Positions 33,687 to 58,300 of a stretch of DNA of 64,000 nt are shown piece after piece. Made by a program: the position numbers and the translations under genes. Numbering within the stretch: position 1 is the first letter of the stretch; each line of letters begins with the position of its first letter. The stretch is taken from NCBI GenBank assembly GCA_963693285.1, contig OY848926.1, forward strand, positions 191,001-255,000. Direction: 5' to 3'. The notes below the pieces were generated by a model. It made no database searches, was not told where the DNA came from, and saw nothing but the letters and a program-made list of their open reading frames with translations. Origin of the DNA: Xestospongia muta (Eukaryota > Porifera > Demospongiae > Haplosclerida > Petrosiidae).

Positions 33687-36600
33687 ATGGCGAATGCTGC
33701 AACATTTCTGTTGTTAATCTTTTTACCTGCTACAGGTAATGGAAACTTACGACCATAATTAGCATTATCTTTTTTCAATAGTATTAGCTCAGACACCAGC
33801 TGTTTCAACTTTTAATGAAGATGACATAGTTCAATGTTTTAATAATGTTACATCCTGCAATGCTAACAATAATGTTATGATGATAACAGCTGGACAGTGT
33901 TGTAATTCAAGTGGAGGGTCCTCTCGACATGTTAGGGTTATTTTTACTGGTAATCAGGTTTTCTGTGGCAGTTGCTTTAGTGAGTTACATAAATGTAATT
34001 ATCGAAATTTAAAGAATACGAAAAGTGCAAAAAGTTGCAAAGGACTAAATTTACATACAGAAAAGGGAAAAAACAAAATCAAAGTACAACCATAGTGCAA
34101 CTTGTACATTAACTGCAACTTATTTCTCATTTTATTTTATTTTGTTCATGTATCTACAAAAGTATATTAGTCCTGAATCACAATCAATGATTGAAAATTA
34201 ATACACTGTGTTTCATTGTAGCTGTTACATTCAATCAAAGCTCATATAGTTATGGACCTGAAAACAGTGGGACAACTGTCTCTTTTCCAATTACTGTTTC
34301 CTACTTCTCTGGTACTGGTAACTATGATGTTAGGCTCCGAGTTAGCAATAACCCAGATCCCTTACAAAGTAAGCGTTTTGTTAAATATGATTATATTTAT
34401 TGCCTCTGTAGATGGTGGACGGTTTATCAGTAGTTTCTCCAATAATGACATTCAATACACACCTTCAACTACATCACACAATTTTATGATGACATTAGCT
34501 GGTAGTGGTAACCAGGTTGCTCTTGAAGATGCTCTGAGTTTTACTCTTGTGATGTCTGTTACATTCTCCTCCTTCAGTGGTTTTACAGTTATTGTATTGA
34601 GTTCACCTAATGTTATAATAGATGATTTAGATGGTGAGTAAATCTGACATACTTGTGCAAATATATGTGAACATTAACATCATGCACGATGACTTTCTTT
34701 AGTAATCAAAATAAGATTTGATGAAGCAAGTCGTCTTCATGAAGCTCAAGAATCATCTGGGAGTGTGTCTGTGGTAATTAATCGTGATACCATTGGATTT
34801 CATACTAGTTTTAATGTGACTATTACAACAAGAGAGTACAGTCAAGATCTAATGACGTTGACCCCAGATCAGTCAATTGCAAGACCTAATATTGGTATGA
34901 TGTTCTTCATATTATTGAATTGGTGATAATTCTAACTGTTTTTAGATTTTGTGGATGGTCAAACAGTGACAAAGCAATTTATAGCTGAAAGTACAGACAC
35001 TGAAAGAACATTTGAATTTACAATCATAAATGATAAAATCGTTGAGTTAGATGAACTCTTTGATCTTGTTATCACTGTTAGTGATCCTCGAGTACAGATA
35101 GAACATGATGTGGGTTTTGCTTCAATTTCTGATGATGAAAGTATGGCTGTATATTATAACATGTGTATGCTATATCTTGTTGTTCTATAGAATTCAGTGT
35201 TGGCTTTAATCAAACAGAGTACACAATATATGAAGGTGAAGATACAACATTGGTTGTTATAGAGTATCAAGGATTCATTGGTGGTATTGCAAGTGGTGGA
35301 GTGCCTGGATTTCGTCTACCTGGATCTTTCCTGGAATTCTTTGGTATAGACAGCTCAGCTCGTGAAAGTTAGTATCATTCCTTGAAAAAAGAATATCTCA
35401 TATTTTTCACTGTAGATCTTGACTTTACAATCAACAAAAACCTTTCTCGATTCTCATACTCTCCTAGTAACACTATCAACACTATTTCTGTACCTTTTCA
35501 AAGTGTAAGCGATAGTGTTCTTGAGAGATCTGAAATAGCTGTTCTAGAAATAAGACTTGCTACAACTGGTGTTTTTATTCAAATTCACAATAGTATTGTC
35601 CAACGTGTTGCTATCACCATTTTGGATAACACTTGTAAGATTTGTATTACATTTGAACATTAATATAATATGTGGTGGTGCTGTAAAAATTCAATGTTTA
35701 GAACATTAGCCATATACTTCAACAATTTATCACTAAATAGTTGAATGGTGACACAAGAAAGTTGTGTCACCATCTGATTTTATTGGGTGCATACTTAGAA
35801 AAGCATTTGTGATATTGTAATTGGACTGATCTGTATAGTAAAATACTGAAGTTTTAAGTTGTGGAGCAATTATTGAAACATCATAAATACTGCCCTTGAG
35901 GTTGTGGTAGAGGCTTCATTGGTTGTTATGTATATTAGCAGGTTAATTCTATTAGTTGTTTTTAACTGTTGGATTTAACAACAATACAATGAAATCTTGA
36001 AAATGGGCATAGATTTATACATTTACAATGGTGCCTCCTTTAATGGACTCACTAAATAACAAAAACCTGTCTAATATGGACATAATTCTGTGTTCCACAA
36101 TGAATTCCTGATACACCTAGTATTTACACAATTTCTGAAATATTAAAACTTCCAGACTCAATGTAAAAAACACCTTTTGTTATTTGGATAATAAACAATT
36201 TTCTCTCATAATGGAAAGTGGTGTACCTGATGGTAATAAAATGTTATTACCACTATTATACATATCTGTAGCTAATTTAAACCTCTAAATAAATGACATG
36301 TCTGTCATTGCTGTAATTGGGACCCAGGTCCTAATGTCCAGAATGTGGTAGTTCCATTATATATCTATAGACATGTGGCCCAAAGTAGAATTATAAGCAA
36401 GTTAAAATAAAGTTCTAACATCATAATTCCTGGGAGAAAGCAGTAGTATAATGTATTAATACATGTCTGTATATAAAGTATTAATACGTGTCTGTATATA
36501 AAGTATTAATACATGTCTATCTATCTATAGTGGCCACAGTGAGACTAAATGCTAGTAAATATAATACATCAGAACCAGCTGGAGGAGTCCAGGTGTGTGC

Positions 36601-39600
36601 AGACTTAATTAATGCAACTTTAGGATCTCGTCAAAGTTTACAAGTAAATTTTGCTTTTATTGATGGATCAGCAAAGCGAAACCGTAAGAGTTGGACAATA
36701 AAATCTTAATGTTTATTGACATGCTCTTTTTTGTAGAGGATTATTCTCGATTACCTTTTGAGCCTTTCTTTTTTAATTTTATGGCTCCCGATACACAAGC
36801 ATGTGTTACTATTAAAATTGAGGATGACAACATCAGAGAACCTTTACTTGAGTTCTTCAATATAACATTACTACCTTATGATCCTAATACAAGTCCAACT
36901 CCAGGTTATGCAGGGCTGACTGTAGATACAACTCCTTCAAGTATTTGTATAGAAGATGATGATCGTAAGTTGATCTGATCAATTTGTTAGTTAAATATTC
37001 ATTCTCTTGAGCAGAAGCTGAGGTTAGATTTGAGCGATCAAATGTCACATTCTCTGAAGCTGATGGTGATCAAAATATATATGTTATACTAGATGGAGGA
37101 CAAATATCAAACAATCAAACTGTAGAAGTCTATGATATCAGAACAAGTAATCACATACTACAATATATTAGCTTTATGTTTGAGGTCAGCCACTGACTTG
37201 ATATTTTTTTCCTTTTTCAGGCCAAACTCTTGGTATTGTTACATTTGTTGGTGGAGTACAAGCTCCTCAAAGACAACCTGTTGTCTTCCCTGTTGTTGAT
37301 AACGATATTGCTCTGGAGTTTGACATATTAACACAACTTGGTTTAAGAAATTATGGTCAACTACAAGAAGGAACTCCATTTACTATGAATGTAACAGTTG
37401 TGGATGATGATGGTAAATAAAAAAATAATAGAAATTTATTAAAATGTATTGCCTTAATTTTAATATGTAATTATAACTTGCATTATTTCTCTTTAGCTGT
37501 TACAGTGAACTTTAGTCAGGCCCTATATCCTTACAGTGAGAACGATGGTGTAGTATCAGATATTATTGTTGAATTATCTAATGAAATTGCTCAGGATCTA
37601 ACTGTCACTATATCTGGAGGTAATTAATCCTTAGTTTCGTGACTATTTAACATATTGTTACTTTAGGACCTGGTAATCAACCTTCAACTGTTAATATATC
37701 TGGTGTCTATGTGACTCAAACTATGACATTTTCAGCACATGGAAATCAATCTCAAGGACTATCTAACTTTACTATCACAAATGATGATGTTGCCCTGGAG
37801 ACCATAGAACAATATGATCTTTCCTTTAGTAATCCTTCCATTACTAATCGTGTCACATTGGGTCCAAATACAACAATACAGATTACAGATGATGATGGTG
37901 AATAATAATAAAGTATATTTTATTAAGTAATGATTTTCTTCTTTGTTTAGTTGTTACTGTCAATTTTGGTCATAGCTTGTATTCTTACAGTGAGAACCAT
38001 GGAGTAGTATCAGATATTACTATTACATTAAGTAGTGCAATAGCTCAAAGTCTTACTGTCACTGTATCTGGAGGTAATGATAAATATGTAATAAATGTTT
38101 AATATAATGTTATTTTAGGACCTGGTAGTCAACCTTCAACTGTTGAAATATCTGGTGTCAATGTAAATGAAATGATTACATTTGGTGCACGTGGATCTCA
38201 ATCTAAAGGACTATCTAACTTTACTATCACAAATGATGCTGTTGCCCTGGAGACCATAGAACAATATAATCTTTCCTTTAGTAATCCTTCCATTACTAAT
38301 CGTGTCACATTGGGTCCAAATACAACAATACAGATTACAGATGATGATGGTAAATAATAATAAAGTATATTTTATTAAGTAATGAATTTCTTCTTTTTAG
38401 CTGTTACTGTCAATTTTGGCAAGAGTTTATATCCTTACAGTGAGAACCATGGAGTAGTATCAGATATTACTATTACATTAAGTAGTGCAATAGCTCAAAG
38501 TCTTACTGTCACTGTATCTGGAGGTAATGATAAATATATAATAACTGTTTAATATAATGTTACTTTAGGACCTGGTAATCAACCTTCAACTGTTGAAATA
38601 TCTGGTGTTGATGTAAATGAAATGATTACATTTGGTGCACGTGGATCTCAATCTAAAGGACTATCTAACTTTACTATCACAAATGATGATGTTGCCCTGG
38701 AGACCATAGAACAATATGATCTTTCCTTTAGTAATCCTTCCATTACTAATCGTGTCACATTGGGTCCAAATACAACAATACAAATAAATGATGATGAAGG
38801 TATTTCAAATTTTGAAATCAAAAATGTATTTTTTTCCTGTAGTACTTCGTGTTGATCTCGATCCACAAATGTCCTTCTATGATGAAGGACAACCAGGTAA
38901 TTTAAGAGTGATATTATCTTATATCATAGCTCAGGATTTCAGTGTTGATGTCAATGGATGTAAGTTATTATGATAAAGATCTCTAGTTATATATGAATGT
39001 ATAGCTTCAGGACCACAGCTAAGGGTTATGAACAGTGGCCCTCCTATAAATCAGAGAGTTATGTATACTGCTCGTGGTACAAGAACAATGAATATTCCAT
39101 TCACTGTTGGAAATGATGATGTGGCTAGAGAAGATATGGAGAGTTATCAAGTTGCTCTCTCAAATCCTAGTAATACATCAGCCATTTTGGGTACAGCAGC
39201 TACCATCAATATTAGAGACACTGATTGTAAGTGGGTACTTATTTTTTTGTCTTAAAACAAAAAATTTCTTGCAGATGCCAACATTACTTTTGAACAACCT
39301 CGATATGAATTCCTCGAGAATGCAGGGCTAACAATGGTTGTAACAGTCATTTTGAACAAAGAAATAGCTGAAGGATTTACTGCACGAGTTGTAGGAGGTG
39401 AGTGTTCACTTAGTATTCTTCATTGATCTGTTCATATATTGTATAAAGACCCTGGTATGCCACCTCCTACAATTGTTAATTCAGGCAGTGTTGTTAACTA
39501 TAATATAACTTTCCTACCATTTAATAATAGTTTAGTAAGTTATTACTACCTGATAATATATATTATGTTTAATGTAATTACAGGCTAATTTACAGAAGAT

Positions 39601-42600
39601 AATTCCTGTACAAATTGTTAATGATTCAACCTCAGGAGAGCCAGATCAAACATATGATTTAACATTTGTGGGAGTACCTACTGGAACAGGAACCAAAGCA
39701 GTCAATGAATATCCACATGAGAGAACAACAATTGTTATTATTGATGATGATGGTCAGTATTGTTAACAGTCTAAAATAGTCTATAAGCTATATTTTTTTT
39801 CGTAGTGGCTCGTGTTTTCTTTGATTCTCCTGAGACCACAACACTTGAATCTAATCAAGGTGCTTACATCACTGTTGTTCTCACTGGTAGTATATCTCAA
39901 AATGTATCAGTGGATGTTGTGGATGATGATAGTAAGTAATAATTGTGTATTAATAATGTAATACCTGCTTTTACATTGTGTTTCTATATTTTCTCTGTTT
40001 ATAATAGAACTTGTGTTATTATGTATATTATGTTACTTGGTTTCTTTGTCAAGGTAATCTTGTACGTACAGTTATATTTCAACCAATGGCTACATCAAGA
40101 CAAACAATGAGGTTTTTTGTACCCTATCCTGATGATATAATTGCTCTAGAACCTGATGAGTATTTTAATTATTACTTGATGAATGCAAAAGATGTTATCA
40201 TTACTTCACCTAACACCACTCGACATCGTCTTGTTGATGATGATGGTACATTCCAATATGACTTGATTTGCTATTATTAATACCTTTATAGAGCTTCTTG
40301 TTACATTTGTCCAATCTGCATATGATTTCAATGAAGATGATCAATCTGTTTACATTGAGGCAGAAATCTCCAATCCAATTGCTCGTACTTTTAGAGTGTC
40401 CACAACATTTATAAGTAAATCACTTGTATACATTTCACGAATGCTTATTTAAAACCATTTTATTTCTATAGGGCAACAAATTCAACCATTTGTTTCAATC
40501 TCTGGTCCATTTTTTACTGACACATTAATTTATCAGCCGAATAGAACTCGAATTCTTCGTATTAGTGGGTTTGTTAGAGATGATGATATTGCTCTGGAAG
40601 ACGTGGAGACTTATTTTGTTCGATTTATCAATCCCGATCCAAGTCCCAATGCCAATCCTTATGTTAAAATTGGCAATGATACTCTGATATCAGTATTTGA
40701 TGATGACAGTGAGTTAGGCATTTTGTAAAAATATTTTATATTGAATTTACAAATTAGCTGTCAATGTGACGTTTAGTCCTGGTAATCATTTTGATGAGGC
40801 ACAAACTACAGAACAAATAGCAGTAAGGATTAATGCACCAATAATTCGAGATTTACGTGTGAACATTAGATCAAGTGAGTATAATCAATAATTGATATAA
40901 AGTACATCTATTGTTATCTCCGTTAGCTCCTCAACCTGATCCATTGGTGGAACAATCAGGCTCATTCTATACTACTTTTGTGACATTCCCAAGTCAGGGT
41001 AGCTCGATACAGCTTTTTACCTTTCCTATTAATGATGATACTGTTGCATTTGAAAATGTTGAAAATGTGGAGCTATCCTTTATTAATTCAAGTTATACCG
41101 ATGGTGTCATACTTGGTAGTAATGAAATAGCAACAATCACTGATCCTGATGGTATATTACTATATATAATGTCCTTGCAGTGCACACTGTTTCTTCTCTA
41201 GGTGTAACTGTGATGTTTGTAGACTCTGTAGTTAATGTTTTTGAGAATGAGACTTCTGTAACAGTACAACTGATGACCAGTAATGTTATTAAGAGGAATG
41301 TTTCTGTCAGAGTTAGAGGAGGTTTGTACAAAATAATTACTGTTAATGACCTTTAAGTATTGCCCATTCTTTAGGACCAAATCGATCTCAGCAATTTGTG
41401 GAATTTTCTGGAACAGATATTGACCAATATGTCACATTTATAGCTGATGGATCCAACAAGGCTTCCTTTACTTTTGCTCTTAATGATGACATGAAAGCTT
41501 TGGAAGTTACAGAGACATACCAGCTTTACTTGAATGGTTCAATGCCATCTCAGAATGTCAATTTACTTGGCCCTATGACTGTAAACATATTTGATGATGA
41601 TTGTAAGTTGGAATAAAGACTGGAAGGATATAATTGTTGTCATTGCAGATTTGAATGTGATGTTTGGTCAACCAGAGTATGTGTTCTATGAGAATGTATC
41701 TATGGGTAGTGTGGTGGTTAAAATTGACAAAGAGATTTTACAAGATTTTACTATACAAGTTACTGGAGGTAAACTCAATATTATATTAGTTACATTTGAT
41801 TATATATTATTAAAGGACCTGGTACTCAACCTATGACAGTTGTCATATCAGGTTCTGATGTCAATAGTACTGCCACTTTCACAGCTGATGGGTCTCTTAT
41901 GACAACAGTGACTTTCAGTATCTCTGATGATTCAGTGTCTCTTGAAGATGATGAAGAGTACTTTTTAAATATGCAAAATCCTAATCCATCAACAAGAGTA
42001 ATAGTGGGTGATAGAACCAAAATTATCATCAAAGATGATGACAGTATGTTGTGTTGTATTTATTTAGTTAATGCTATTACTATTATACTGTTTTCAGCAT
42101 TGGTATATGGTTTTACTGATTCATTCAGAAGATTTATTGAAAATGGAGGAAATGGTACCTTTAATTTTGTCGTCTCCCGAACTGCTAAGCCAACTTCATA
42201 TAACCTAACAATCAGTAAGTATAAAATAGTGAGACTTAACAATCTTAATAGCATTACTCAATACTTACTGGCTATATTATATTATTATTACATTGTAGAC
42301 AGAATCCTTCCATCAAACATTGTACGCTCTTTGCTTAACTTGGACTGTGGCCAAGATGCTTCCGGAAATCTCAATGTTCCTGCATCTACTGCATCAGATA
42401 GTGTTATTACTTGCACTGCTGTTATTCAAGATGACAGTATAGCACTAGAGGATGATGAGACTGTCACCATAACTGCTATACTGGTTACTCCAAATCCTTC
42501 AACTATTATGGTATCACCTGGAATTAGAACACTGCCAGTAACTGTTGAAGATGATGATGGTATATAGTGATCTTTTGTGGATTTAATGATAATTGTATGT

Positions 42601-44569
42601 ATTATTTTTCTAGAACCAATTGTGACTATGGTTGATTCAACTAAAGATGTCACTGAAGGAGATATGGTAGAAATATGTATCCAAGTTAACAAGATGTCAG
42701 TGCGTGATATCACAGTCAGACTTAACACTGCCAATGGTAAAGCAAAAGGTAAGAAGCAGTAAATTTTGTCTGATATCTCTTCAGAAATATTATTATATTT
42801 GCATGCCCACATTATTGATGAATACAGAAAGTAATATAATATTTTCTAGATGGCTTAGACTATACTGGTGGACAGAAGTCACTAATCATTCCAGCAGGAT
42901 CCCAGGGACCAATCTGTGTAAACTATACCACTTTACCAGACACAATAAATGAAGGTGATGAAAACTTTAATGTTACAATAATCACCACCTCATCTACGAC
43001 ACCAAATTCTGGAAACCCCAAGCGTCCTGATATTGGTAGTCCAGATACAACCAATGTCATAATCAAAGATGTTGCTCCACCAACAAGAACCTGCACAGTT
43101 GATGGTATCACAGGACAGCTCAGTACATTTAATAATCTAGACAATTACATATATAACAGAAGCTGTGAACATATCCTTGTAATTCAGCAGACAAGTTATG
43201 GAGAATTTGCTATAGTCATTGATACACTGGATGGTACATACAGAACTGCACGACTTGGTGTACGCCTTGGTAATGAGACACTTGTGATTAGTGCAGCTAA
43301 TTTAACTGTTTTGAAGAGTGTAAATCTTCGCCTAATTGTAGTAAATATTGAAACTAATTTAATTGAAATCACAATTGCTCCGTTTGGGCTTACAATTAGA
43401 GTCACAAGTGACAGTATAACAATTGACATTGAAACTGGGTTTTTAAACTTTCATCTTGGACTCTGTGGTAATGTTATGGGCAACTTAGTCTTCAGAAATA
43501 GCACTGTTGTTGATACAAACGATCCAAAAGCATTGAACAAAGCCATCAATCAATATCTTGTTCCTCCCAGTGAGACTATTACTAGAACAGTTGCCAGAAG
43601 ACATTGTGGTAAGTTCTGAAGCATGTTTTGTGTGTATTTGTATACCATCCCTTTTTCTAGGTCTTTTGGTAGAGGATGTTGAGACTGGAGATCCTATATA
43701 TACAGTACCTCTCTATACTCCTGATCAATCCAAGCCACACACTTACTCAATTTGTTATGAAATTCATGGAGAAGCTAATCGATACTTCAATTTTATCTCT
43801 GATGAATGTACATCTGTCAATGGTCATTACTTTGGAACTCGAGATTATGATCCTGACTCGACTCGAGATTTCCATGGAGTTGATGGTGTCTATGTTTTAG
43901 CAGTGAACAATGACAAACAATGTGTTAATATAACAGTCTCTCTTGACCAGATTAATGACTGTGAAACCAGTCTAAATGGTGGTAGAATATCTTCCTATAA
44001 ACATCGAGGCATTTCAGTTCAAGTAGCAGGCAACACTACTAATATTACAGTCCCTAATTGTGTGGATGGTGCACTTACTATGCAAGTAATTTGTAAAGCA
44101 ACTACTAATGGAACGAAATTCCAAGAATTCCGAGTAATACGTGGTCTAAACTTGAACGAGGAGTCACATGGACTTATTGGTAAACCAGTTTAAATTTGTT
44201 TGAAATGTCTTCCCTCTCTAAAATCATATCATTTATATTTCTTTAGGTCAATTTTGGAATGTTAAGAGTGTGGTTACTAAATATAATGAATCTCTCCGAG
44301 ATGGTTCAGTTAATGAAAAAGCATACAAAATTGAGTTACAACCAAAAAATAAGCCCACACGTACTTTTATTGGATTCCTGGAAGACGTGACTTGGGACTT
44401 TACTCCACAGCAGTGTCTTTATGTAGGTAATGCTCAAGGAGGTCCCATCAATGAAGCAGCTGATGGGGAACCTAATGACTCTCTCATTGAAGGAGATTAT
44501 ACTCAGTACATAATGGATTCTTCATATGATGTTGGATTTACTTACCAACATTTCAATAGCCAATGCTGA
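33687..44569 (+). CDS. AF-like protein: Cys-rich N-terminus, 17 Calx-beta, vWD, C-terminal module (gene 6)
   Basis: Predicted secreted AF-like protein, about 2568 residues in 39 exons. All introns are phase 1 except the phase-0 intron 39535-39583. ATG at 33687 opens a signal peptide (ATFLLLIFLPATVLA). Exons: 33687-33735, 33782-33979, 34222-34368, 34412-34633, 34703-34894, 34946-35140, 35191-35367, 35416-35634, 36531-36683, 36737-36964, 37015-37146, 37221-37412, 37497-37619, 37667-37897, 37951-38073, 38119-38349, 38401-38523, 38569-38799, 38843-38959, 39011-39226, 39275-39397, 39449-39534, 39584-39752, 39806-39931, 40054-40245, 40292-40414, 40472-40708, 40758-40874, 40927-41151, 41202-41321, 41375-41602, 41649-41768, 41816-42043, 42098-42214, 42299-42559, 42614-42748, 42850-43608, 43661-44179, 44247-44569. 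Exon 42850-43608 fuses the last Calx-beta half to the vWD-like region (CEHILVIQQ, LGLCGNVMGNLVF). From about exon 15 onward the gene has a near-identical copy in gene 7. Confidence 0.82.
33782..33979 (+). other. Cys-rich N-terminal module of gene 6
   Basis: One 198-nt phase 1-1 exon: QCFNNVTSC, then GQCCNSS, then FCGSCF. It has the same Cys spacing class as genes 4 and 5. Confidence 0.6.
35745..35773. repeat. Perfect 12-bp stem, 5-nt loop inverted repeat
   Basis: ATGGTGACACAA, loop GAAAG, TTGTGTCACCAT, inside the long intron of gene 6. It could be a mobile-element remnant or an RNA hairpin. Confidence 0.7.
36453..36518 (+). repeat. 25-bp short tandem repeat
   Basis: About 2.6 copies of a unit beginning GTATTAATACATGTCTG and ending TATATAAA, just upstream of the acceptor of exon 36531-36683. 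Confidence 0.75.
37490..38800 (+). repeat. Three tandem ~450-bp Calx-beta units in gene 6
   Basis: Exon pairs 37497/37667, 37951/38119 and 38401/38569 have identical lengths (123 + 231 nt), spacing of 450-454 bp and near-identical sequence, introns included. Gene 7 keeps two such units (45673-46071 and 46124-46522). Confidence 0.88.
43661..44569 (+). other. AF C-terminal module of gene 6
   Basis: Exons 43661-44179 and 44247-44569. Motifs: ETGDPIYTVPLYT, ICYEIHGEANRYFNFISD, CTSVNGHYFG and ESHGLIG, then GQFWNV, CLYVGNAQGG and LIEGDYTQY, with a C-terminal Cys. Confidence 0.75.
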
Positions 44570-44652
44570 GTTTAACTTTTCCCACATTCTCAATATAATA
44601 ATTATTAAAAGTAGTGGTAGTTTGTTATAGTTTTTGCTTTGTAATTTACAAC

Positions 44653-44658
44653 AATAAA
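44653..44658 (+). terminator. Polyadenylation signal of gene 6
   Basis: AATAAA 84 bp after the stop codon. The copy behind gene 7 is at 52367-52372. Confidence 0.5.
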
Positions 44659-44899
44659 TTGTTTATTTTCTACTACTTAATCTTGTTAACATTGACAATA
44701 ATCAAACTTAGTAACTGCAATATAAAAAAGTGCTAAACTCATATCATAAACTCTAAACCCTAAATCTCCTACAATAAATGTGCTTTATTTAAAGTAACTC
44801 AGAAATTTATTTAAAAAGGGTAGAGGCTAGAGTTGTTATCATAATGCAGGAAGCATACAGGGTGGAAGCGCCCTCCCTCCAGTTAAAAGTGAGAAGAAC

Positions 44900-47800
44900 A
44901 TGGAGCTGGACTCTGGAGAAGATGGAATACAACGTGGCAAACTCCTTAATCGACTTCTCAATCAGAGTGGTTATGGTTGTTTCCACGTTTTCTTGTTAAT
45001 TGGTAAGACAACATTTAACATATTAAGATTACAATACTTTAGTGTGTGGTGTTGCCTTGGCATCGGATTCTGTGGAAGCCTCAAGTGTCTCATTTGTAAC
45101 TCCAGTCTTAGATAATGCTACTGGTTCTGTACATCCAAATAAAATCTCTCCTCTAGATGTAACCGTTATGTTTGTAGACTCTGCAGTGAATGTTTTTGAG
45201 AATGAAACTTCTGTAACAGTACAACTGATGATCAGTGATGTTATTAAGAGGAATGTTTCTGTTAGAGTTAGAGGAGGTTTGTACAAAAGAATTATTGTTT
45301 ATGACATTTGAGCATTGGTCATTCTTTAGGACCAAATCGATCTCAGCAATTTGTGGAATTTTCTGGAACAAATGTTGACCAATATGTCACATTTATAGCT
45401 GATGGATCCAACAAGACTTCCTTTACTTTTGCTCTTAATGATGACATGAAAGCTTTGGAAGTTACAGAGACATATCAGCTTTATTTGAGTGGTTCAATGC
45501 CATCTCAGAATGTCAACTTACGTGGGCCTATGACTGTAAACATATTTGATGATGATTGTAAGTTGGAATAAAGACTGGAAAGATATAATTGGTGTCTGCA
45601 GATTTGAATAATCTAAATATATATGTATCACTATCCTATCATCAATCTCATGTTTTAATTATAATTTTTTAGTTGTTACTGTCAACTTTCTCCGGAACTT
45701 GTATTCTTACAGAGAGGACCATGGTTTAGTATCAGATATGGCTCTTATATTATCTACTGAAATTGCTCAAGATCTTACTGTCACTGTGTCTGGAGGTAAT
45801 GATAAATATATAACAACTATTTAATATAATGTTACTCTAGGACCTGGTAGTCAACTTTCAACTGTTGAAATATCTGGTATCTATGCAATTGTTAATATTA
45901 CATTTGAAGCACATGGATCTCAATTACAAAGACTACCAAGTTTGTCTTTCATCAATGATACTGTTGCCTTGGAGACTGTAGAACAATATAATTGTTCACT
46001 TAGTAATCCCTCAATAACTCAAGGTGTCATATTGGGCCCAGATGCAATAATACAAATTTTTGATGATGATGGTAAATGATAATGAAATATGTTTATTAAG
46101 TAATGACTTTCTTTTTTGTTTAGTTGTTACTGTCAATTTTGGTAAGAGCTTGTATTCTTACAGTGAGAACCATGGAGTAGTATCAGATATTACTATTACA
46201 TTAAGTACTGCAATAGTTCAAAGTCTTACTGTCACTGTATCTGGAGGTAAAGATAAGTATATAATGACTGTTTAATGCATTGTTACTTTAGGACCTGGTA
46301 ATCAACCTTCAACTGTTGAAATATCTGGTGTCAATGTAAATGAAATGATTACATTTGGTGCACGTGGATCTCAATCTCAAGGACTACCTAGTTTTACTAT
46401 TATCAATGATACTGTTGGCCTAGAGACTGTAGAACAATATAATGTTTCCTTTAGTAATCCTTCCATTACTAACAATGTCATACTGGGTCCAAATACAAGA
46501 ATACAAATAAATGATGATGAAGGTATTTCAAATTTCGAAATCAAAATGTATTCTTTTCCTGTAGTACTTCATGTTGATCTCGATCCATTAATGTCCTTCT
46601 ATGATGAAGGACAACCAGGTAATTTAAGAGTGACATTATCTTATGTCATAGCTCAGGATTTCAGTGTTGATGTCAATGGATGTAAGTTATTATGATAAAG
46701 ATCTCTAGTTATATATGAATGTATAGCTTCAGGACCACAGCTAAGGGTTATGAACAGTGGCCCTCCAATAAATCGGAGAGTTATGTATACTGCTTGTGGT
46801 GCAAGAACAGTGAATATTCAATTTACTGTTGGAAATGATGATGTGGCTAGAGAAGATATGGAGAGTTATCAAGTTGCTCTCTCAAATCCTAGTGATACCT
46901 CAGCCATTTTGGGAACAGCAGCTACCATCAATATTAGAGACACTGATTGTAAGTGGGTACTTATTTTTTTGTCTTGAAACAAGTTCTTGCAGATGCCAAC
47001 ATTACTTTTGAACAACCTCGATATGTTTTCCTCGAGAATGCAGGGCTAACAATGGTTGTAACAGTCATTTTGAACAAAGAAACAGCTGAAGGATTTACTG
47101 CACGAGTTGTAGGAGGTGAGTGTTCACTTAGTATTCTTCATTGAACTGTTCATATATTGTATAAAGACCCTAGTGTGCCACCTCCCACAATTGTTAATTC
47201 AGGCAGTGTTGTTAACTATAATATAACTTTACTACCATTTGATAATAGTTTAGTAAGTTATTACTACCTGATAATATCTATTATGTTGAATATAATTACA
47301 GACTAACTTACAGAAGATAATTCCTGTACAAATTGTTAATGATTCAACCTCAGGAGAGCCAGATCAAACATATGATTTAACATTTGTGGGAGTACCTACT
47401 GGAACAGGAACCAAAGCAGTCAATGAATATCCACACGAGAGGACAACAATTGTTATTATTGATGATGATGGTCAGTACTGTTAACAATCTAACATAGTCT
47501 ATAAGCTATACTTTTTCGTAGTGGCTCGTGTTTTTTTTGATTCTCCTGAGACCACAACACTTGAATCTAATCAAGGTGCTTACATCACTGTTGTTCTCAC
47601 TGGTCGTATATCTAATAATGTATCAGTGGATGTTGTGGATGATGATAGTAAGTAATAATTGTGTATTAATAGTGTAATACCTGCTTTACATTGTGTTTCT
47701 ATATTTTCTCTGTTTATAATAGAACTTGTGTTATTATGTATATTATGTAACTTGGTTTCTTTGTCAAGGTAATCTTGTACATACAGCTATATTTCAACCA

Positions 47801-50800
47801 ATGGCTACATCAAGACAAACAATGAGGTTTTTTGTACCCTATCCTGATGATATAATTGCTCTAGAACCTGATGAGTATTTTAATTATTACTTGATGAATG
47901 CAATAGATGTTATCATTACTTCACCTAACACCACTCGACATCGTCTTGTTGATGATGATGGTACATTCCAATATGACTTGATTTGCTATTATTAATACCT
48001 TTATAGTGCTTCTTGTTACATTTGTCCAATCTGCATATGATTTCAATGAAGATGATCAGTCTGTTTACATTGAGGCAGAAATCTCAAATCCAATTGCTCG
48101 TACATTTAGAGTGTCCACTACATTTATAAGTAAATCACTTGTATACATTTCATGAATCCTTATTTAAAACCATTTTATTTCTATAGGGGAACAAATTCAA
48201 CCATTTGTTTCAATCTCTGGTCCATTTTTTACTGACACATTAATATATCAGCCGAATAGAACTCGAACTCTTCGTATTAATGGGTTTGTTAGAGATGATA
48301 ATAAAGCTCTGGAAGATGTGGAGACTTATTTCGTTCGATTTATCAATCCCAATCCAAGTCCCAATGTCAATCCTTATGTCAAAATTGGCAATGATACTCT
48401 GATATCTGTATTTGATGATGACAGTGAGTTAGCCATTTTGTAAAAGAATATTTTATATTGAATTTACAAACTAGCTGTCAATGTGACGTTTAGTCCTGGT
48501 AATCATTTTGATGAGGCACAAACTACAGAACAATTAGAAGTAAGGATTAATGCACCAATAATTCGAGATTTACGTGTGAACATTAGATCAAGTGAGTATA
48601 ATCAATAATTGATATAAAGTACATCTATTGTTATCTCCGTTAGCTCCTCAACCTGATCCATTGGTGGAACAATCAGGTTCATTCTATACTACTTCTGTGA
48701 CATTCCCAAGTCAGGGTAGCTCAATACAGCTTTTTACCTTTCCTATTAAAGATGATACTGTTGCATTTGAAAATGTTGAAAATGTGGAGCTATCCTTTAT
48801 TAATTCAAGTTATACCGATGATGTCATACTTGGTAGTAATGAAATAGCAACAATCACTGATCCTGATGGTATATTACTACATATAATGTCCTTGCAGTGC
48901 ACACTGTTTCTTCTCTAGGTGTAACTGTGATGTTTGTAGACTCTGTAGTTAATGTTTTTGAGAATGAGACTTCTGTAACAATACAACTGATGACCAGTAA
49001 TGTTATTAAGAGGAATGTTTCTGTCAGAGTTAGAGGAGGTTTGTACAAAATACGTATTGTTTATGACATTAAAGCACTGGTCATTCTTTAGGACCAAATC
49101 GATCTCAGCAATTTGTGGAATTTTCTGGAACAGATATTGACCAATATGTCACATTTATAGCTGATGGATCCAACGAGGCTTCTTTTACTTTTGCTCTTAA
49201 TGATGACATGAAAGCTTTGGAAGTTACAGAGACATACCAGCTTTACTTGAATGGTTCAATGCCATCTCAGAATGTCAATTTACTTGACCCTATGACTGTA
49301 AACATATTAGATGATGATTGTAAGTTGGAGTAAAGACTGGAAGGATATAATTGTTGTCATTGCAGATTTGAATGTGATGTTTGGTCAACCAGAGTATGTG
49401 TTCTATGAGAATGTATCCATGGGTAGTGTGGTGGTTAAAATTGACAAAGAGATTTTACAAGATTTTACTATACAAGTTACTGGAGGTAAACTCAATATTA
49501 TATTAGTAACATTTGATCATATATTATTAAAGGACCTGGTACTCAACCTATGACAGTTGTCATATCAGGTTCTGACATCAGTAGTACTGCGGTTTTTACA
49601 GCTGGTGGCTCTCTTATGACAACAGTGACTTTCAGTATCTCTGATGATTCAGTGTCTCTTGAAGATGATGAAGAGTACTTTTTAAATATGCAAAATCCTA
49701 ATCCATCAACAAGAGTAATAGTGGGTGATAGAACAAAAATTATCATCAAAGATGATGACTGTATGTTATGTTGTATTTATTTAGTTAATGCTATTACTAT
49801 TATACTGTTTTCAGCATTGGTATATGGTTTTACTGATTCATTCAGAAGATTTATTGAAAATGGAGGTAATGGTATCTTTAATTTTGTCGTCTCCCGGACT
49901 GCTAAGCCAACTTCATATAACATAACAATCGGTAAGTATAAAATAGTGAGACTTAACAGTCTTAATAGCATTACTCAATACTTACTGGCTATATTATATT
50001 ATTATTACATTGTAGACAGAATCCTTCCATCAAACATTGTACGCTCTTTGCTTAACTTGGACTGTGGCCAAGGTGCTTCAGGAAATCTCAATGTCCCTGC
50101 ATCTACTACATCAGATAGTGTTATTACTTGCACTGCTGTTATTCAAGATGACAGTATAGCACTAGAGGATGATGAGACTGTCACCATAACTGCTATACTG
50201 GTTACTCCAAATCCTTCAACTATTATGGTATCACCTGGAATTAGAACACTGCCAGTAACTGTTGAAGATGATGATTGTATATAGTGATCTTTTGAGGATC
50301 TAATGAAATTGTATGTATTATTTTTCTAGAACCAATTGTGACTATGGTTGATTCAACTAAAGATGTCACTGAAGGAGATATGGTAGAAATATGTATCCAA
50401 GTTAACAAGATGTCAGTGCGTGATATCACTGTCAGACTTAGCACTGTCGACGGTAAAGCAAAAGGTAAAAAGCAGTAAATTTTGTCTGATATCTCTTCAG
50501 AAATATTATTATATTTGCATGCCCACATTATTGATGAATACAGAAAGTAATATAATATTTTCTAGATGGCTTAGACTATACTGGTGGACAGAAGTCACTA
50601 ATCATTCCAGCAGGATCCCAGGGACCAATCTGTGTAAACTATATCACTTTATCAGACACAATAAATGAAGGTGATGAAAACTTTAATGTCACAATAATCA
50701 CCACCTCATCTACGACACCAAATTCTGGAAACCCCAAGCGTCCTGATATTGGTAGTCCAGATACAACCAATGTCATAATCAAAGATGTTGCTCCACCAAC

Positions 50801-52279
50801 AAGAACCTGCACAGTTGATGGTATCACAGGACAGCTCAGTACATTTAATAATCTAGACAATTACATATATAACAGAAGCTGTGAACATATCCTTGTAATT
50901 CAGCAGACAAGTTATGGAGAATTTGCTATAGTCATTGATACGCTGGATGGTACATACAGAACTGCACGACTTGGTGTACGCCTTGGTAACGAGACACTTG
51001 TGATTAGTGCAGCTAATTTAACTGTTTTGAAGAGTGTAAATCTTCACCTAATTGTAGTAAATATTGAAACTGATTCAATTGAAATCACAATTGCTCAGTT
51101 TGGGCTTAGAATTAGAGTCACAAGTGACAGTATAACAATTGACATTGAAACTGGCTTTTTAAACTTTCATCTTGGACTCTGTGGTAATGTTATGGGCAAC
51201 TTAGTCTTCAGAACTGTTGTTGATACAAGTGATCCAAAAGCATTGAACAAAGCCATCAATCAATATCTTGTTCCTCCCAGTGAGACTATTACTAGAACAG
51301 TTGCCAGAAGACATTGTGGTAAGTCCTGAGGCATGTTTTGTGTGTGTGTGTATACCATTCCTTTTTCTAGGTCTTTTGATGGAGGATGTTATGACTGGAG
51401 ATCCTATGTATACAGTACCTCTCTATACTCCTGATCGATCCAAGCCACACACTTACTCAATTTGTTATGAACTTCACGGAGAAGCTAATCGATATTTCAA
51501 TTTTATCTCTGATGAATGTACATCAGTCAATGTTCATTACTTTGGAACTCGAGATTATGATCCTGACTCAACTCGAGATTTCCATGGACTTGATGGTGTC
51601 TATGTTTTAGCAGTGAACAATGACAAACAATGTGTTAATATAACAGTCTCTCTTGACCAGATTAATGACTGTGAAACCAGTCTAAATGGTGGTAGAATAT
51701 CTTCCTATAAACATCGAGGCATTTCAGTTCAAGTAGCAGGCAACACTACTAATATTACAGTCCCTAATTGTGTGGATGGTGCACTTACTATGCAAGTAAT
51801 TTGCAAAGCATTTGTTTATGGAACAAAATTCCAAGAATTCCGAGTAATACGTGGTCTAAACTTGAACGAGGAGTCACATGGACGTATTGGTAAACCAGTT
51901 TAAATTTGTTTGAAATGTCTTCCCTCTCTAACATCATATCATTTATATTTCTTTAGGTCAATTTTGGAATGTTAAGAGTGTGGTTACTAAATATAATGAA
52001 TCTCTCCGAGATGGTTCAGTTAATGAAAAAGCATACAAAATTGAGTTACAACCAAAAAATAAGCCCACACGTACTTTTATTGGATTCCTGGAAGACGTGA
52101 CTTGGGACTTTACTCCACAGCAGTGTCTTTATGTAGGTAATGCTCAAGGAGGTCCCATCAATGAAGCAGCTGATGGGGAACCTAATGACTCTCTCATTGA
52201 AGGAGATTATACTCAGTACATAATGGATTCTTCATATGATGTTGGATTTACTTACCAACATTTCAATAGCCAATGCTGA
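44900..52279 (+). CDS. Chimeric gene: SV2-like N-terminus fused in frame to AF Calx-beta/vWD tail (gene 7)
   Basis: Predicted protein of about 1935 residues in 28 exons with 12 Calx-beta domains, a vWD-like domain and the C-terminal module. Exon 1 and the start of exon 2 copy the neighbouring SV2-like gene; at 45143/45144 the sequence becomes AF, in frame. The hydrophobic run CFHVFLLIVCGVALA (the transporter's first membrane segment) ends in ALA-SDS and could act as a signal peptide or anchor. The ATG at 44844, equivalent to the transporter start, is out of frame because of a 4-nt loss, so I use the internal ATG at 44900. Exons: 44900-45002, 45043-45276, 45330-45557, 45673-45795, 45841-46071, 46124-46246, 46292-46522, 46565-46681, 46733-46948, 46993-47115, 47167-47252, 47302-47470, 47522-47647, 47769-47960, 48007-48129, 48187-48423, 48475-48591, 48644-48868, 48919-49038, 49092-49319, 49366-49485, 49533-49760, 49815-49931, 50016-50276, 50330-50464, 50566-51318, 51371-51889, 51957-52279. 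It may instead be transcribed poorly or be an assembly join. Confidence 0.68.
45043..45276 (+). other. Fusion exon (transporter exon 2 / former intron / Calx-beta exon)
   Basis: 234 nt, phase 1-1. Bases 45043-45143 match SV2-like exon 2 (52772-52872). Bases 45144-45156 are the pyrimidine tract and AG of an AF intron, now coding ISPL plus one base. From 45157 it matches AF exon 41202-41321. The 13 intron-derived bases restore the phase exactly. Confidence 0.8.
51371..52279 (+). other. AF C-terminal module of gene 7
   Basis: Exons 51371-51889 and 51957-52279. The 99 residues from the first in-frame Met of the last exon are identical to gene 6. The first exon differs from gene 6 at about ten residues, for example ICYELHG for ICYEIHG. 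Confidence 0.75.
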
Positions 52280-52568
52280 GTTTAACTTTTCCTACATAAA
52301 TTCTCAATGTAACAATTATTAAAAGTAGTGGTAGTTTGTTATAGTTTTTGCTTTGTAATTTACAACAATAAATTGTTTATTTTCTACTTAATCTTGTTAA
52401 CATTGACAATAATCAAATTTAGTAACTGCAATACAAAAAAGTGCTAAACTCATATCATAAACTCTAAACCCTAACTCTCCTACAATAAATGTGCTTAATT
52501 AAAAACAACTCAATAAGTCTTAATCATAAAATTAATTAAAAAGGGTGGAGGCTCGAGCTGTTATCACA

Positions 52569-54829
52569 ATGCAGGAAGCAAACATACAAAGTGGAAGTGC
52601 CCTCCCTCCAGTTAAAAGTGAGAAGAACATGGAGTTGGACTCTGGAGAAGATGAAGTAAGGCGTGGGAAGCTCCTTGATCAACTTCTTGATCAGAGTGGT
52701 TATGGTTGTTTCCACGTTTTCTTGTTAATTGGTAAGACAACATTTAACATATTAAAATTACAATACTTTAGTGTGTGGTGTTGCCTTGGCATCGGATTCT
52801 GTGGAAGTCTCAAGTGTCTCATTTGTAACTCCAGTCTTAGATAATGCTACTGGTTCTGTACATCCAAATAAAGTCCAGGCTGGTGCTTTAGACTCTATCA
52901 TTTTCTTAGGAATGATGGTACATCATACAGTACTTTCTATGAGGTTGTTATAATCATCGTAGGTTGGTGGTTATATGTGGGGTGGTTTAGCTGATGTTAT
53001 TGGACGTAAAACTTGTCTTTTATTGTCACTCACAGTTAATGGGATATTTGGATTAGCATCAGGACTATCTCCAAACTTTGCTACTTTCATGTTGTTTCGT
53101 TTTGGCAGTGGAGTAGGGTACAGTTATTAGTAGTTAGTGCATGAACACATAAAAATAAAAGTTAATATAATATTATAAAGTTATATTTAATCGAAAGAGC
53201 ACTACACTGGTGATTGCTTAACATAACTAGATGTTGTATGAATTTCTTTTAATGATCATATTATTGAAGTTTTTAAATAAGATCATAGCACTTTGTATAA
53301 CTAATAAAGTTTTCTCTCTATTTTAGAGTTGGAGGATCTGTACCTGTTGTGTTTTCTTACTTTTCTGAGTTCTTCTCCAAAAAATATCGAGGGAGTTTTA
53401 TTATTATTTTAGCATCATTTTGGACAGTTGGTCGACTTTATGCTTCTATTATCGCCTGGTTAATTATACCTCGTAATATCAGCTTTTATATAGGATCAAT
53501 GGATGTTAACAGCTGGCGTGTCTTTTTAATTCTATGTACTCTTCCCTCATTTTCATCTGTGGCTACTTTAACATTTTTACCAGAAAGTCCTGGATATTTA
53601 TTTACTGTAAGAATAATTCCTTTGGTTTATTGTAGTTCTGTTTCCTTAACAGAAACGTAAGCATCAAAAAATGCTCAAAGTTTTGAAAAGAATTAGCTAT
53701 TGTCGATGTAAGAAGAAAATTGATATTGTAGAAAAAAGAGAGGTATAAAGTTTAAGTGTGTGCTTCAACATAATTACTGCATTGCAGACAGAACAGTTAT
53801 TACAATCACTTGATTCAAAATTCATGTCTAAAATGGATGTGTCTGATAAAAAGAAAAGCATTACAGAAAAGCTAAAAATTGTAAGAAACAATAGCATCAT
53901 ATTATCCTTGATATATCTATGTATTTAGCTCTGGTCTGCAACAGTGGACTTGTTTCATCCTCCATATCTCCGACCAAACATTGTCATGATAGTTGTATTT
54001 TTTACATTATCCTTTGGGTAAGCCATTACTTCATCCATAATGAAGTATCTCCTTCTTAATACTTATTTAGTTATTATGGTCTTGTACTGTGGTTTCCAGA
54101 ATACTTTAAACATATTGAAAAAAAGAATTGTCTCAAATTGAATGCCACAGATTGTGATGTCTCATCATCTTACACAGATAATAAAGTGTATTTGGATAAT
54201 TTATATGTATCTTTGTCAACAATACCAGGAATTGTGTTTGGAGTATTTTTAGTTAATATTGTTGGAGCTAAAATACTCCTTGGTAAGAAGTACTAATGAT
54301 TGTGAGGCATACAAACTATTGTATTTTTATTTTACAGCATTTTCAATGGTTGTGTCTGCCTTAAGTACTTTTGCTATTTGGGCAGTCCCAAAGAAAGCAA
54401 GCATTATTGTCATTCTTTCCTGTGTATTTACTGGATTTTCAACTATTGGATGGATTGCTTTGGATGTGATAGTACCTGATTTATTTGCAGTACATTTACG
54501 GTATGTAGAAATAAAACAGTCTTTATATGTTGTACAAATAAAATAGTCTATATATATTGTTCATTTTTCATAGATCAACTGCATTTGGTTTTCAATCAGC
54601 TGTTGGTCGTATAGGATCCATTATTGGGACAGTATTATTTGGGAAGCTGATCACAGTCAATCCATATCTACCCATTTTAATTGTTGCTTCTCTCTTGATT
54701 TTTGGAGGGCTTGTGGTATTCCTAGCACCCTCTGATAAAAAGAGGATCACGTTGTCGTGTATTTGTCGCTGTTTAGTGTTACCATGTCGCGATTATTGGA
54801 GAAAGAAAGACTATTATAATTTACAATAG
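52569..54829 (+). CDS. SV2/SVOP-like major facilitator transporter A
   Basis: Twelve-helix-type membrane transporter of the synaptic vesicle glycoprotein 2 branch of the major facilitator superfamily; substrate unknown. Ten exons: 52569-52731, 52772-52917, 52963-53117, 53327-53606, 53653-53742, 53788-53880, 53929-54017, 54071-54282, 54338-54500, 54574-54829; 548 residues, intron phases 1, 0, 2, 0, 0, 0, 2, 1, 2. Motifs: ADVIGRK (MFS motif A), SGVGVGGSVPVVFSYFSEF, YASIIAWLIIP, SWRVFLILCTLPS and FLPESPGY. SV2-like residues follow in the C-terminal half (TIGWIALDVIVPDLF, STAFGFQSAVGR). The loop after helix 7 is only about 45 residues (with an NATDC glycosylation site) and lacks the long pentapeptide-rich luminal loop of vertebrate SV2. 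Its promoter and first exons were copied into gene 7. AATAAA at 54890-54895 follows. Confidence 0.85.
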
Positions 54830-54889
54830 TGTTCAATATCTTTAACTTTCTAGATGTCTTATAATAATTATGAAGCTTTTTAATTGTAC

Positions 54890-54895
54890 AATAAA
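54890..54895 (+). terminator. Polyadenylation signal of transporter A
   Basis: AATAAA 61 bp after the stop codon. Confidence 0.5.
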
Positions 54896-55024
54896 ATGTT
54901 GAATTATAATAATTATTATTTATATAATAATGTTTAATAATCTGTAAAACGGAAGTATATTAACATTATCTGGAGAGGGGGCGGAAGAGGAAATGAATAA
55001 ATTAATACTCCGTATACTATAATT

Positions 55025-57132
55025 ATGAAGCCCAAGGAAAAAGACAGTGAAAGACAAATTGTTGATCGAGTTATTGATAAAACGGGCTATGGATGTTTCC
55101 ATATCTTGTTGTTGTTTGGTTAGTATGGGAAATTTACATTCTCTATGAGTAATATTGTTTATTACACTAGTTGCTGGATGGGCCATTATATCTGATATGG
55201 TAGAGATTACTAGTATCTCATTTGTGATTCCAGTCCTAGACAATAGTTCTGATCCTTCTATACAACCTACTAAGTTCCAATCTGGTGCTTTGAGCTCTGT
55301 TATATTTGTTGGGATGATGGTACAAAGATAAATTGTTATGTAACAATATATAACACATCTTTTGTCTTGTGTTAGATTGGTTCATATTTCTGGGGAGGTT
55401 TAGGTGACATTATTGGTCGTAAAGTTTGTCTCATGTTATGTTTAGCAGTTAATGGTGTCTTTGGATTTACTTCTTCTCTTTCACCAAATTTTGGTGTATT
55501 CATGTTTCTTCGTTTTGCAAGTGGAATTGGGTAAATGGTACATAGATATGATAAACGATATGTTGTATGTAATAATTGTTAGTTTTAATTTTACAAACTT
55601 GTCATTCCATTCTCATCATTTCAGAGTTGGAGGCTCTGTTCCATTGGTATACACTTATTGTTTTGAGTTTTTCTCTCAAAAATATGGTGACATGTTCATA
55701 GTTACTATTGCAACATTTTGGGGAATTGGTCGACTTTATACTTCCTTGTTAGCGTGGCTAGTGATACCTCGCAGTATTAGTTTTAATATTGGAACATTAA
55801 ATATAACAAGTTGGCGTCTCTTTATAATGTTATCTGCATTTCCTTCACTTTCATCTGTGGTAGCTCTACTGTTTTTACCAGAAAGTCCAGGTTATTTATT
55901 TTCTGTAAGTTTATTGTTGTGTTCAACAAGCACTGTTATGTTTCTCTCACTAAACCAGAAAAACAAGCAACAAAAAGCTCTTAAAATTCTAGAGAGAATA
56001 AGTTGGTGTAATCGTTGCAGGAAAAGACCTAATGATGAAGAAGTATGTGACTTGACTTTGTTCAATGAATGATATGTTAAATTGTAATTTTTAGACTGAT
56101 CAGCTCCTATCATCATTAAAAAATGGATCGGTCAGGAACAGCTCTAGTGTTGTTACAATTAATGTTACAATTAAAAAAATGAAAATAGTTAGTGATGTTT
56201 GAAGAATGCTTAGCTATTATTATTACAAATTATACAGGTTTGTTTAAGAACTATTGACTTGTTTCGTATTTCACATCTTCGATCTACAATTGTCATGATT
56301 GTTGTATTTTTTACACTCTCTTTTGGGTGAGTTTAAACTCACTACATGTCTTATCATGAAACTTATCTTATTTTTAGTTCATTTGGTTTTACTCTTTGGC
56401 TACCAGAGTACTTTAAACTTATTGAACAACAGGAAAATAATGGAACTGACATAAGGACATCATACACTGATAGCAAAATATATTTAGATAACATTTATGT
56501 CTCATTAGTAGCAGTACCGTCATTTTTAGTGTCATTAATACTTATAAAAATAATTGGAGCTAGGATATTGCTTAGTAAGAAGCCATTTAGTATGTTAGTA
56601 ATTCTATTATTTTATTATTTTACAGCAATCTCAATGGTTGCGTCTGCTCTCAGTACATTTACTATTTGGGGTGTTCCTAAGAAGATCAATCTGATAGTTC
56701 TATTGTCTTGTGTGTTTAATGGAGTATCTGGTAGTGGATGGACAGCATTAAATGTTGTAGTTCCTGATCTCTTTGAAGCATATCTGAGGTAAATGGTCTT
56801 ACATTTAATAGGTTGTTGTATTTGTCGTAAATAGAACAACAGCTTTTGGCCTTTTTTCTGCTGTGGGTCGTCTTGGCTCAATTGCTGGGACACTTATATT
56901 TGGGAGACTAATTACAGTGAATCAATATCTTCCTATTTTAATTTCTGCATCTCTCTTTGTGATTGGTGGACTAGCTATACTTGGAGCACCTTTTAACAAG
57001 AGAAAGCCACGTATAATACGTTATATATCCTCAGCTCTTCACTGTTACTATAAGAAAAAATACTTCAACATAAATAGAAATGTTGAAGAATCTGTCATTT
57101 TTAATTCTGACAGCAAAACAGTTAATTATTGA
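55025..57132 (+). CDS. SV2/SVOP-like major facilitator transporter B
   Basis: Tandem paralogue of transporter A, about 533 residues, with the same ten-exon structure and intron phases: 55025-55118, 55171-55319, 55376-55530, 55625-55904, 55959-56042, 56095-56187, 56238-56326, 56378-56574, 56626-56788, 56835-57132. Motifs: IISDMVEITSISFVIPVLD in helix 1, GDIIGRK, SGIGVGGSVPLVYTY, FLPESPGY, GSGWTALNVVVPDLFEAYL and TTAFGLFSAVGRLGSIAG. The N-terminus is shorter than in A. Its start lies 195 bp after the stop of A, and the two differ throughout, so this duplication is older than the AF/SV2 7.7-kb event. Confidence 0.84.
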
Positions 57133-57369
57133 GGTCTACAATTTAATATTTTATTTCCTCATAAAATATTCTTGTAATAATTGTTGCTAAAATCTGATTT
57201 ATGCTGATAATATTTTATTTGTTAGTTTTATCTTTGCAATACCAATTGTACATTTTATATGTGTCATACAACTTCATGGAATGGTCTGTCCCACATGATC
57301 CTGTACATGTACCCATTGTAGCTAAACATATATATAGAAAACTATCATTATTATTATCAACTTAGAAAG

Positions 57370-57421
57370 GGGAATGTCACATCAATTGGGAATAGGGAAA
57401 TGTCACATCAATTGGGAATAG
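57370..57421 (+). repeat. Two-copy ~26-bp tandem repeat
   Basis: The core TGTCACATCAATTGGGAATA occurs twice in a row, the second copy ending at 57420. Confidence 0.75.
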
Positions 57422-57639
57422 ACTTGCTGTTTGTCCTATGAAGAGAAACATCAATACATTAATGAACAAAGATTGGAATAAGAGGTAATGGTTTATGCAA
57501 AGAGGTATGGACAGTTTGATACAAACTTGGTCTTGGATAAGAGGATTGTGTCAACACTTAAAGAAGAATGAATGTGATAATATATTGAAAAAGTGGATGT
57601 AGTTAAAGAAGTAGAAATATGAAAAGTTCAGTTATTTAA

Positions 57640-58300
57640 AAAGTTCATGTAGCTTTGTTTTGTATGTGGAATTGGATAAAAAATAAATTGTTATGATAAG
57701 GATATGTATATGATTATTGTTAGTTTTAATTCTACAAACTTGTCATTCCATTCTCATTATTTCAGAATTGGAGGCTCTGTTCCATTGGTATACTTTGAGT
57801 CATCTCAAAAATTATGGTGACACGTTCATAGTTATTATTTCAACATTTTTGGGAAATGGTCACTTTATACTTCCTTCTTGTTAGCATGGTTAGTTATATC
57901 TCATAAAATTAATTTAAAGTTGGCATTTCTTTTTAAATATATGTACCTAATGTTTTTACCAGAAATTCCTGGTTTTTATTTGCTGTGATTATATTTAGAT
58001 AACATTTATGAACAGAGTATCTGGTAATGGGTGGATAGCATGAAATATTCCTGATCTCTTTGAAGCATACTGAGGTAAATGGTCTTACATTTACTAGATT
58101 ATTATATTTATTGTAAATAGAACAACAACCTTAGCTTATTCCTACTGTGGGTTGTCTTGGCTCTATTACTGGGACACTTATATTTGGGAGACCAACTACA
58201 ATGAATAGGTGGACTAGCTATATATTTAGCACATAACACTATTATGAAGAAACCATTTCTTTTGTATTTATGTCTTCAGCTTTTCAATATTGTTTTAGGA
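57640..58300 (+). pseudogene. Decayed third SV2-like copy
   Basis: This matches transporter B in order but with gaps and frame breaks. The end of exon 3 and its intron match near 57660-57765, and exon 4 from 57766 (GAATTGGAGGCTCTGTTCC) with internal deletions to about 57985. Then come a fragment of exon 8 (TATATTTAGATAACATTTATG), exon 9 (58015-58078) and exon 10 (from 58120). Stop codons and indels are scattered, and exons 1-2 and 5-7 are missing. Confidence 0.85.

Follow-up and report, generated by a model that had tools for sequence, protein, structure and literature searches.

How could a gene of the aggregation factor (AF) type come to begin with the first exons of a transporter gene, and can such a gene still yield a protein? 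The question is raised by a stretch of 64,000 nucleotides (C10:191001-255000, hereafter the window), in which SV2-like coding sequence runs directly into an AF-like gene; coordinates below are positions in the window unless a contig is named, and all features lie on its plus strand. Judged by its sequence, the fusion is a real chimeric gene present in two assemblies, and the copy in the window carries damage and may not yield a full-length protein.

Parent genes, junction and transporter-derived head

The AF-type parent, AF1 (33687..44569), was modelled with 38 exons and 2588 codons and no internal stop. It begins with a signal peptide of its own (MANAATFLLLIFLPATVLA; signal exon 33687-33735), which a 5'-truncated AF copy would otherwise be without, in line with an earlier note on this DNA. 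Sponge AFs are marked by a Calx-beta array, a VWD region and a Wreath domain, and their genes are clustered; to judge by this gene family, the genome is probably that of a sponge. The AF-type body claimed in that note is borne out by Calx-beta matches above the cut-off and by VWD matches that are clear in paralogs. In AF1, Pfam PF03160 (Calx-beta) reaches 5.2e-22 over the first 937 aa. In the fusion gene this family reaches 2.3e-8 (34.5 bits, against a cut-off of 27) over a 932-aa part but only 21 bits over the first 463 aa, and the first fused module alone has no Calx-beta match in Pfam. VWD scores 13.8 bits in an AF1 exon, under a cut-off of 22.9 that two of three cluster paralogs exceed. 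The last AF exon matched no Pfam family, and exons of its type occur at at least nine places in the genome including itself, six on C10 (all within the window) and three on C9. AF-like sequence is also found on C2 (10512000-10521999 and 10725000-10744999; loci L016, L014 and L015), with parts that correspond to stretches within the 5' half of AF1 (33.8-38.4 kb) and are 76-88% identical to them, for the most part 80-88%; when two C-terminal exons of the AF type were used as queries, none of the matches listed lay on C2.

The parent of the head lies downstream, where a gene model at 52569..54829 matches SV2A (2.7e-77, in three stretches), with MFS_1 and Sugar_tr above their cut-offs and the SV2 model TIGR01299 at 1e-59 over 227 aa, below its whole-protein cut-off; the exon chain of this model is uncertain from about 53606 to 54071, where two of its exons measure 4 and 11 nt. 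The best eight solved-structure matches of this gene are SV2A or SV2B, in agreement with the SV2-like identity first proposed for the head. Behind the locus, SV2-like sequence recurs in pieces 74-85% identical (53312-58206), and a second copy of one SV2-like exon lies at C10:246611 with 59% identity.

Alignments to both parents confirm the transition placed earlier at 45143/45144, where SV2-like coding sequence is followed by 13 bases that once belonged to an AF intron, and these by a Calx-beta-type exon. Homology to the downstream SV2 copy, whose matching part ends at 52872, does not extend past 45143, and AF homology continues from 45144 through both exons of a copied module, as aligned with two AF modules. 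The intron remnant (45144..45156), which retains the old AF acceptor AG, matches the intron end before 41202 at 10 of 13 positions and was also aligned with that at 48919; on translation it now codes ISPL and the first base of the next codon, GAT, just as had been read before. The fusion exon, 45043-45276, is likewise as first described, 234 nt long, open and of phase 1 at both ends, with AG before it and GT after it. We nevertheless rejected the in-frame join as a sign of function: 2380 of the 7150 breakpoint pairs tried (one in three) gave an open in-frame exon, because nearly all AF exons are of phase 1 at both ends. The old AF acceptor (exon start 45157), with a score of 7.7 where the SV2 exon-2 acceptor has 7.4, could let splicing omit the SV2 part of the fusion exon; splicing to 45157 leaves the frame open up to the same stop as in the full form (discussed below), which is codon 1342 of the shorter form. 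No donor in the AF1 range scores lower than that of the fusion exon, GTTTGT (3.1), but we dropped this counter-argument because the parental exon has the same letters.

The intergenic stretch 44570..44843, which follows the AF1 stop and precedes the first SV2 ATG, is a candidate promoter of the fusion gene, resembling the sequence before the downstream SV2 gene with 93.7% identity over 271 aligned sites; an SV2-type head with its upstream sequence occurs at at least two places in the genome (158 Mb, 28 contigs searched). The start at 44844 that had been proposed for the fusion is not supported: translation from there (44844..44999) is out of frame with the fusion and ends after 51 codons at TAA 44997-44999, because four bases of the 52.57-kb copy are deleted here, and the in-frame ATG is at 44900. 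The out-of-frame ATG has A at -3, which by the Kozak rule makes a usable start context. From the in-frame ATG, fusion exon 1 (44900..45002) encodes an SV2-like N-terminal tail and the start of the first transmembrane segment (TM1), and is followed by a 40-nt GT-AG intron (45003..45042) in common with the downstream SV2 gene, the GT of the donor at 45002 and the AG of the acceptor at 45043 both being found in that copy too. The SV2 part of the fusion exon (45043..45143), which represents 101 of the 146 nt of modelled SV2 exon 2, encodes by alignment to SV2A the rest of TM1 and the start of the first loop, and shows a single difference from 52772-52872 in 101 bases. Differing sites are unevenly spread: exon 1 has 12 in 102, whereas intron 1 and the exon-2 part together have 2 in 141. 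We do not claim positive selection on the N-terminal tail, since synonymous change there is high too.

With the limits of the TM1 and TM2 helices placed where we take them to be on the SV2A alignment, the fusion point falls between the two, in the first loop just past TM1; SV2 homology ends at 45143, after TM1, and the twelve-helix SV2 core is not present in the fusion. The hydrophobic segment of the head is accordingly best described, by this alignment, as SV2 TM1. This qualifies the suggestion that the segment, with its ALA-SDS end, could work as a signal peptide. A possible cleavable signal stands, with a score of 8.58 at ALA|SDS (attained by 116 of 2000 shuffles) on a von Heijne matrix; but given that the segment is SV2 TM1, a signal peptide and an uncleaved membrane anchor would be equally likely. 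The fusion's 8.58 is lower than the 13.06 of the signal of AF1, and the SV2 gene has the same 8.58, so the score alone cannot tell anchor from signal peptide; in an SV2 transporter TM1 is presumably uncleaved. In the form spliced to the old AF acceptor the score falls to 3.4. The tail of the fusion has lost acidic residues beside the hydrophobic segment (+3 versus 0 over 16 residues), and the charge is SV2-like in P0009, a protein of the other assembly that matches the exon-1 frame.

Duplication layout and proposed origin

The earlier note had explained the locus by one clean tandem duplication of 7.7 kb, an account that proved too simple. Comparison of the window with itself shows a duplicated body (37942-45143 versus 45665-52872) of 95% identity, and 45147-45609 matches 41192-41656 and 48909-49373 instead, with 92-93% identity; 466 bp from another module therefore lie at the join and are followed by a second breakpoint, at 45609/45610. 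This templated copy (45144-45609), drawn from the 41.19-kb module, has a join on each side and contributes the two AF exons that come first in the fusion. For the first half of the copied module (45157..45276), identity to the copies at 41.2 and 48.9 kb is 92-93%, measured over 45147-45400 and over 45147-45609, and the second half (45330..45557), also aligned, encodes the motifs TNVDQ and NLRG. Behind it stands a composite intron (45558..45672) made up of the module intron, its acceptor (which scores 3.0), 8 bases of the next exon and then an array-type intron. The segment 45610-45680, or nearly all of it, has 81-85% identity to three places on C2.

These joins could have arisen by a duplication with a copied insert or by several events. 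We put at about one half the probability that a tandem duplication, together with the copied AF module, set a 5'-truncated AF gene behind an SV2 head and that TM1 routes the product. The segment duplicated in tandem would have stretched from the AF array as far as SV2 exon 2, with the copy of another module inserted at the join, and the truncated AF gene would thereby have come to lie behind SV2-like upstream sequence, a start codon and a first transmembrane segment. The join would be in frame because the copied module supplied an acceptor and two exons. TM1 of an SV2-type transporter has its N-terminus inside and runs from inside to outside; since the break falls in the next loop, SV2 TM1 would lead the product into the ER and place the array outside. 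The Calx-beta array would then be displayed outside the cell, held in the membrane by TM1 or set free if cleavage occurs after ALA. It is in this sense that we infer the number of events and the promoter use, splicing, targeting and topology of the fusion.

Stop codon, divergence and the second assembly

Mapping of the AF1 exons places the Calx-beta array of the fusion gene in exons 4-23 (45673..50276) and the last Calx-beta unit, the VWD region and the C-terminal region in exons 24-27 (50330..52279), behind a stop. The acceptor AG and the length modulo 3 are kept in 24 of 24 exons shared with AF1, and the donor GT in all 23 shared exons that have a following exon, so that, with parental splice sites and three head exons, the model comprises 27 exons and 1955 codons. 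In the part of the array that corresponds to 37497-38799, AF1 has three units of about 450 bp and the fusion gene two, a difference due to local expansion or loss. Both models also contain a stretch, near 42.05 and 49.77 kb respectively, that may be a small in-frame intron. The intact chimera implied by the earlier note does not hold under the parental splice pattern: codon 1380 of 1955, which is split between exons 23 and 24 (base 50276, then 50330-50331), reads TAA instead of the GAA (Glu) of AF1. The frame is open to codon 1379 and the stop precedes the VWD and last-exon regions, so a full product would need altered splicing; with parental splicing ending at codon 1380, we would expect mRNA decay, a truncated Calx-beta protein or alternative splicing that bypasses the stop.

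Divergence from AF1 bears on whether this copy has been maintained. From 38843 on, the comparison of AF1 with the fusion body covers 1529 codons with a dS of 0.047 and a dN of 0.022, and the resulting dN/dS of 0.476 (bootstrap 0.349-0.704) rises to 0.565 over all 1765 shared codons and to 0.726 in the array part alone; these ratios compare two copies and do not isolate the branch of the fusion. The head has a dS of 0.12 over 68 codons, but all of its synonymous change lies in exon 1 (dS 0.31) and none in the exon-2 part; given this unevenness, the age of the head is not firm. The copied module differs from its native relatives by a dS of 0.09-0.21, compared with 0-0.02 among the natives themselves. 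Taken together, the values for head, module and body would fit an old fusion whose body was homogenised with AF1 by gene conversion.

These same data allow that the fusion is a decaying pseudogene, kept similar to AF1 by gene conversion and making no useful protein, which we regard as possible but unlikely. The window haplotype carries two lesions, the out-of-frame first ATG and the stop at codon 1380, which count against present function, and near-identity to AF1 is patchy: the last exon (44247-44569 versus 51957-52279) has 0 differences over 106 codons and the adjoining flank is 6.3% different, a contrast that points to recent gene conversion, and conversion from AF1 could keep even a dead copy tidy. 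Neutral simulation with half of the divergence assigned to the fusion copy left at most one stop in 107 of 1000 runs, as decay would allow, but with all of the divergence on that copy only 4 of 1000 runs did so. Also counting against decay are the retained splice motifs, the fusion exon, which lies beyond repair by AF1 and is open in two assemblies, and the depletion of coding indels, with a single indel of 6 bp, which keeps the frame, in 4601 coding bases and six indels in 1169 intronic bases (Fisher p 0.0004; the count leaves out four more at 44585-44853, outside AF1). The rarity of indels and the simulations together suggest that the fusion copy was probably constrained or refreshed for most of its history, which need not extend to the present. 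The gene probably kept working until fairly recently.

An improbable alternative is that the gene still makes a working secreted or membrane-anchored variant, through splice forms that drop exon 23 or exon 24 or use an acceptor at 50363. By each of these three routes the model can be read through to its usual end without a stop, but the acceptor at 50363 is weak (4.1 versus 9.5 for the normal one), and skipping an exon would be expected to break a Calx-beta unit. A stop-free model of the fusion gene was rejected, being open solely by way of that weak acceptor.

A protein search with the fusion-exon frame returned eight proteins from ten candidates, of which one, P0001, has the fusion, P0002-P0006 are AF-only and P0007-P0008 are SV2-only. 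P0001 is encoded on a contig of 599,794 bases that does not derive from the window, and it has the same join at 84% identity, with the junction peptide PNK-ISSL-DVTV where the window has PNK-ISPL-DVTV. We read the join as inherited rather than made twice because the window and P0001 share the D in LDVTV and the A before VN, both missing in all five AF-only matches (P0002-P0006); the SSL of P0001 would fit the parental intron end TTCTTCTCTAG. The contig that encodes P0009 is likewise of 599,794 bases. Searching with the copied module's second half yielded two proteins: P0010, of native type, and P0011, which lies on a contig of 1,062 bases and has TNVDQ and NLRG in common with the fusion. On the 757,263-base contig that encodes P0004, P0007 and P0010, no fusion frame was found among the matches; overlapping frames may compete in gene calling, which may hide one. 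The matching contigs may represent a diverged haplotype of the same species. The recurrence of the junction in a second assembly argues against an assembly error and against a very recent origin; near-identical tandem copies are known to misassemble, but with the same junction found elsewhere at 84% identity, no N in the window and copies that are about 5% different, an assembly or haplotype artefact is hardly credible.

Comparison with known chimeric genes

Formation of a chimeric gene by tandem duplication is a known kind of event; what is unusual here is the pairing of an AF with an SV2 gene, and no report of an AF/SV2 fusion was found in the open-licence literature. Sdic of Drosophila melanogaster is a chimera of two adjacent duplicated genes whose coding region comes from one parent alone (PMC3395120). 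The AF/SV2 fusion resembles Sdic in the persistence of both parents, in a remade 5' end and N-terminus and in frameshift deletions near the start, and differs from it in joining coding sequence of both parents and in transferring a transmembrane segment. Tandem duplications in Drosophila yakuba are similarly described as creating chimeric structures and shuffling regulatory elements (PMC5460883). Those chimeras were measured in population-sample RNA, whereas the AF/SV2 fusion is described from DNA, is found in two assemblies and has a second breakpoint.

Compared with SV2/SVOP-type MFS transporters, the fusion keeps the N-terminal tail, TM1 and the start of the first loop, without the transporter core. 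Set beside the sponge aggregation factors on which Grice et al. reportedly worked in 2017, the parent AF1 has its own signal peptide and the fusion has SV2 TM1. AFs serve in adhesion and allorecognition (PMC8380372), and a study of Amphimedon grafts saw no enrichment of AF-mediated adhesion genes (PMC5450542).

The locus offers a base-level example of an AF-type gene gaining a new 5' end: its phase-1 exons let the gene withstand breakage, and the splice acceptor came from a copied module. If expressed, the fusion would give a secreted adhesion or recognition protein the option of a membrane anchor and the regulation of a transporter gene. We consider it a tentative and rather doubtful extension that SV2 TM1 was co-opted as the export signal and anchor of an allorecognition-type adhesion protein, kept across two lineages and varying between individuals; were this true, there would be a membrane-tethered or differently regulated AF variant, which individuals could carry in intact, shortened or alternatively spliced form. 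Since the fusion is common to two assemblies, its age, spread and polymorphism are directly testable in populations. Tandem repetition is also seen elsewhere in the window, at 24859-27036, where a unit of at least 300 nt occurs three times at 99% identity, with a spacing of 939 bp.
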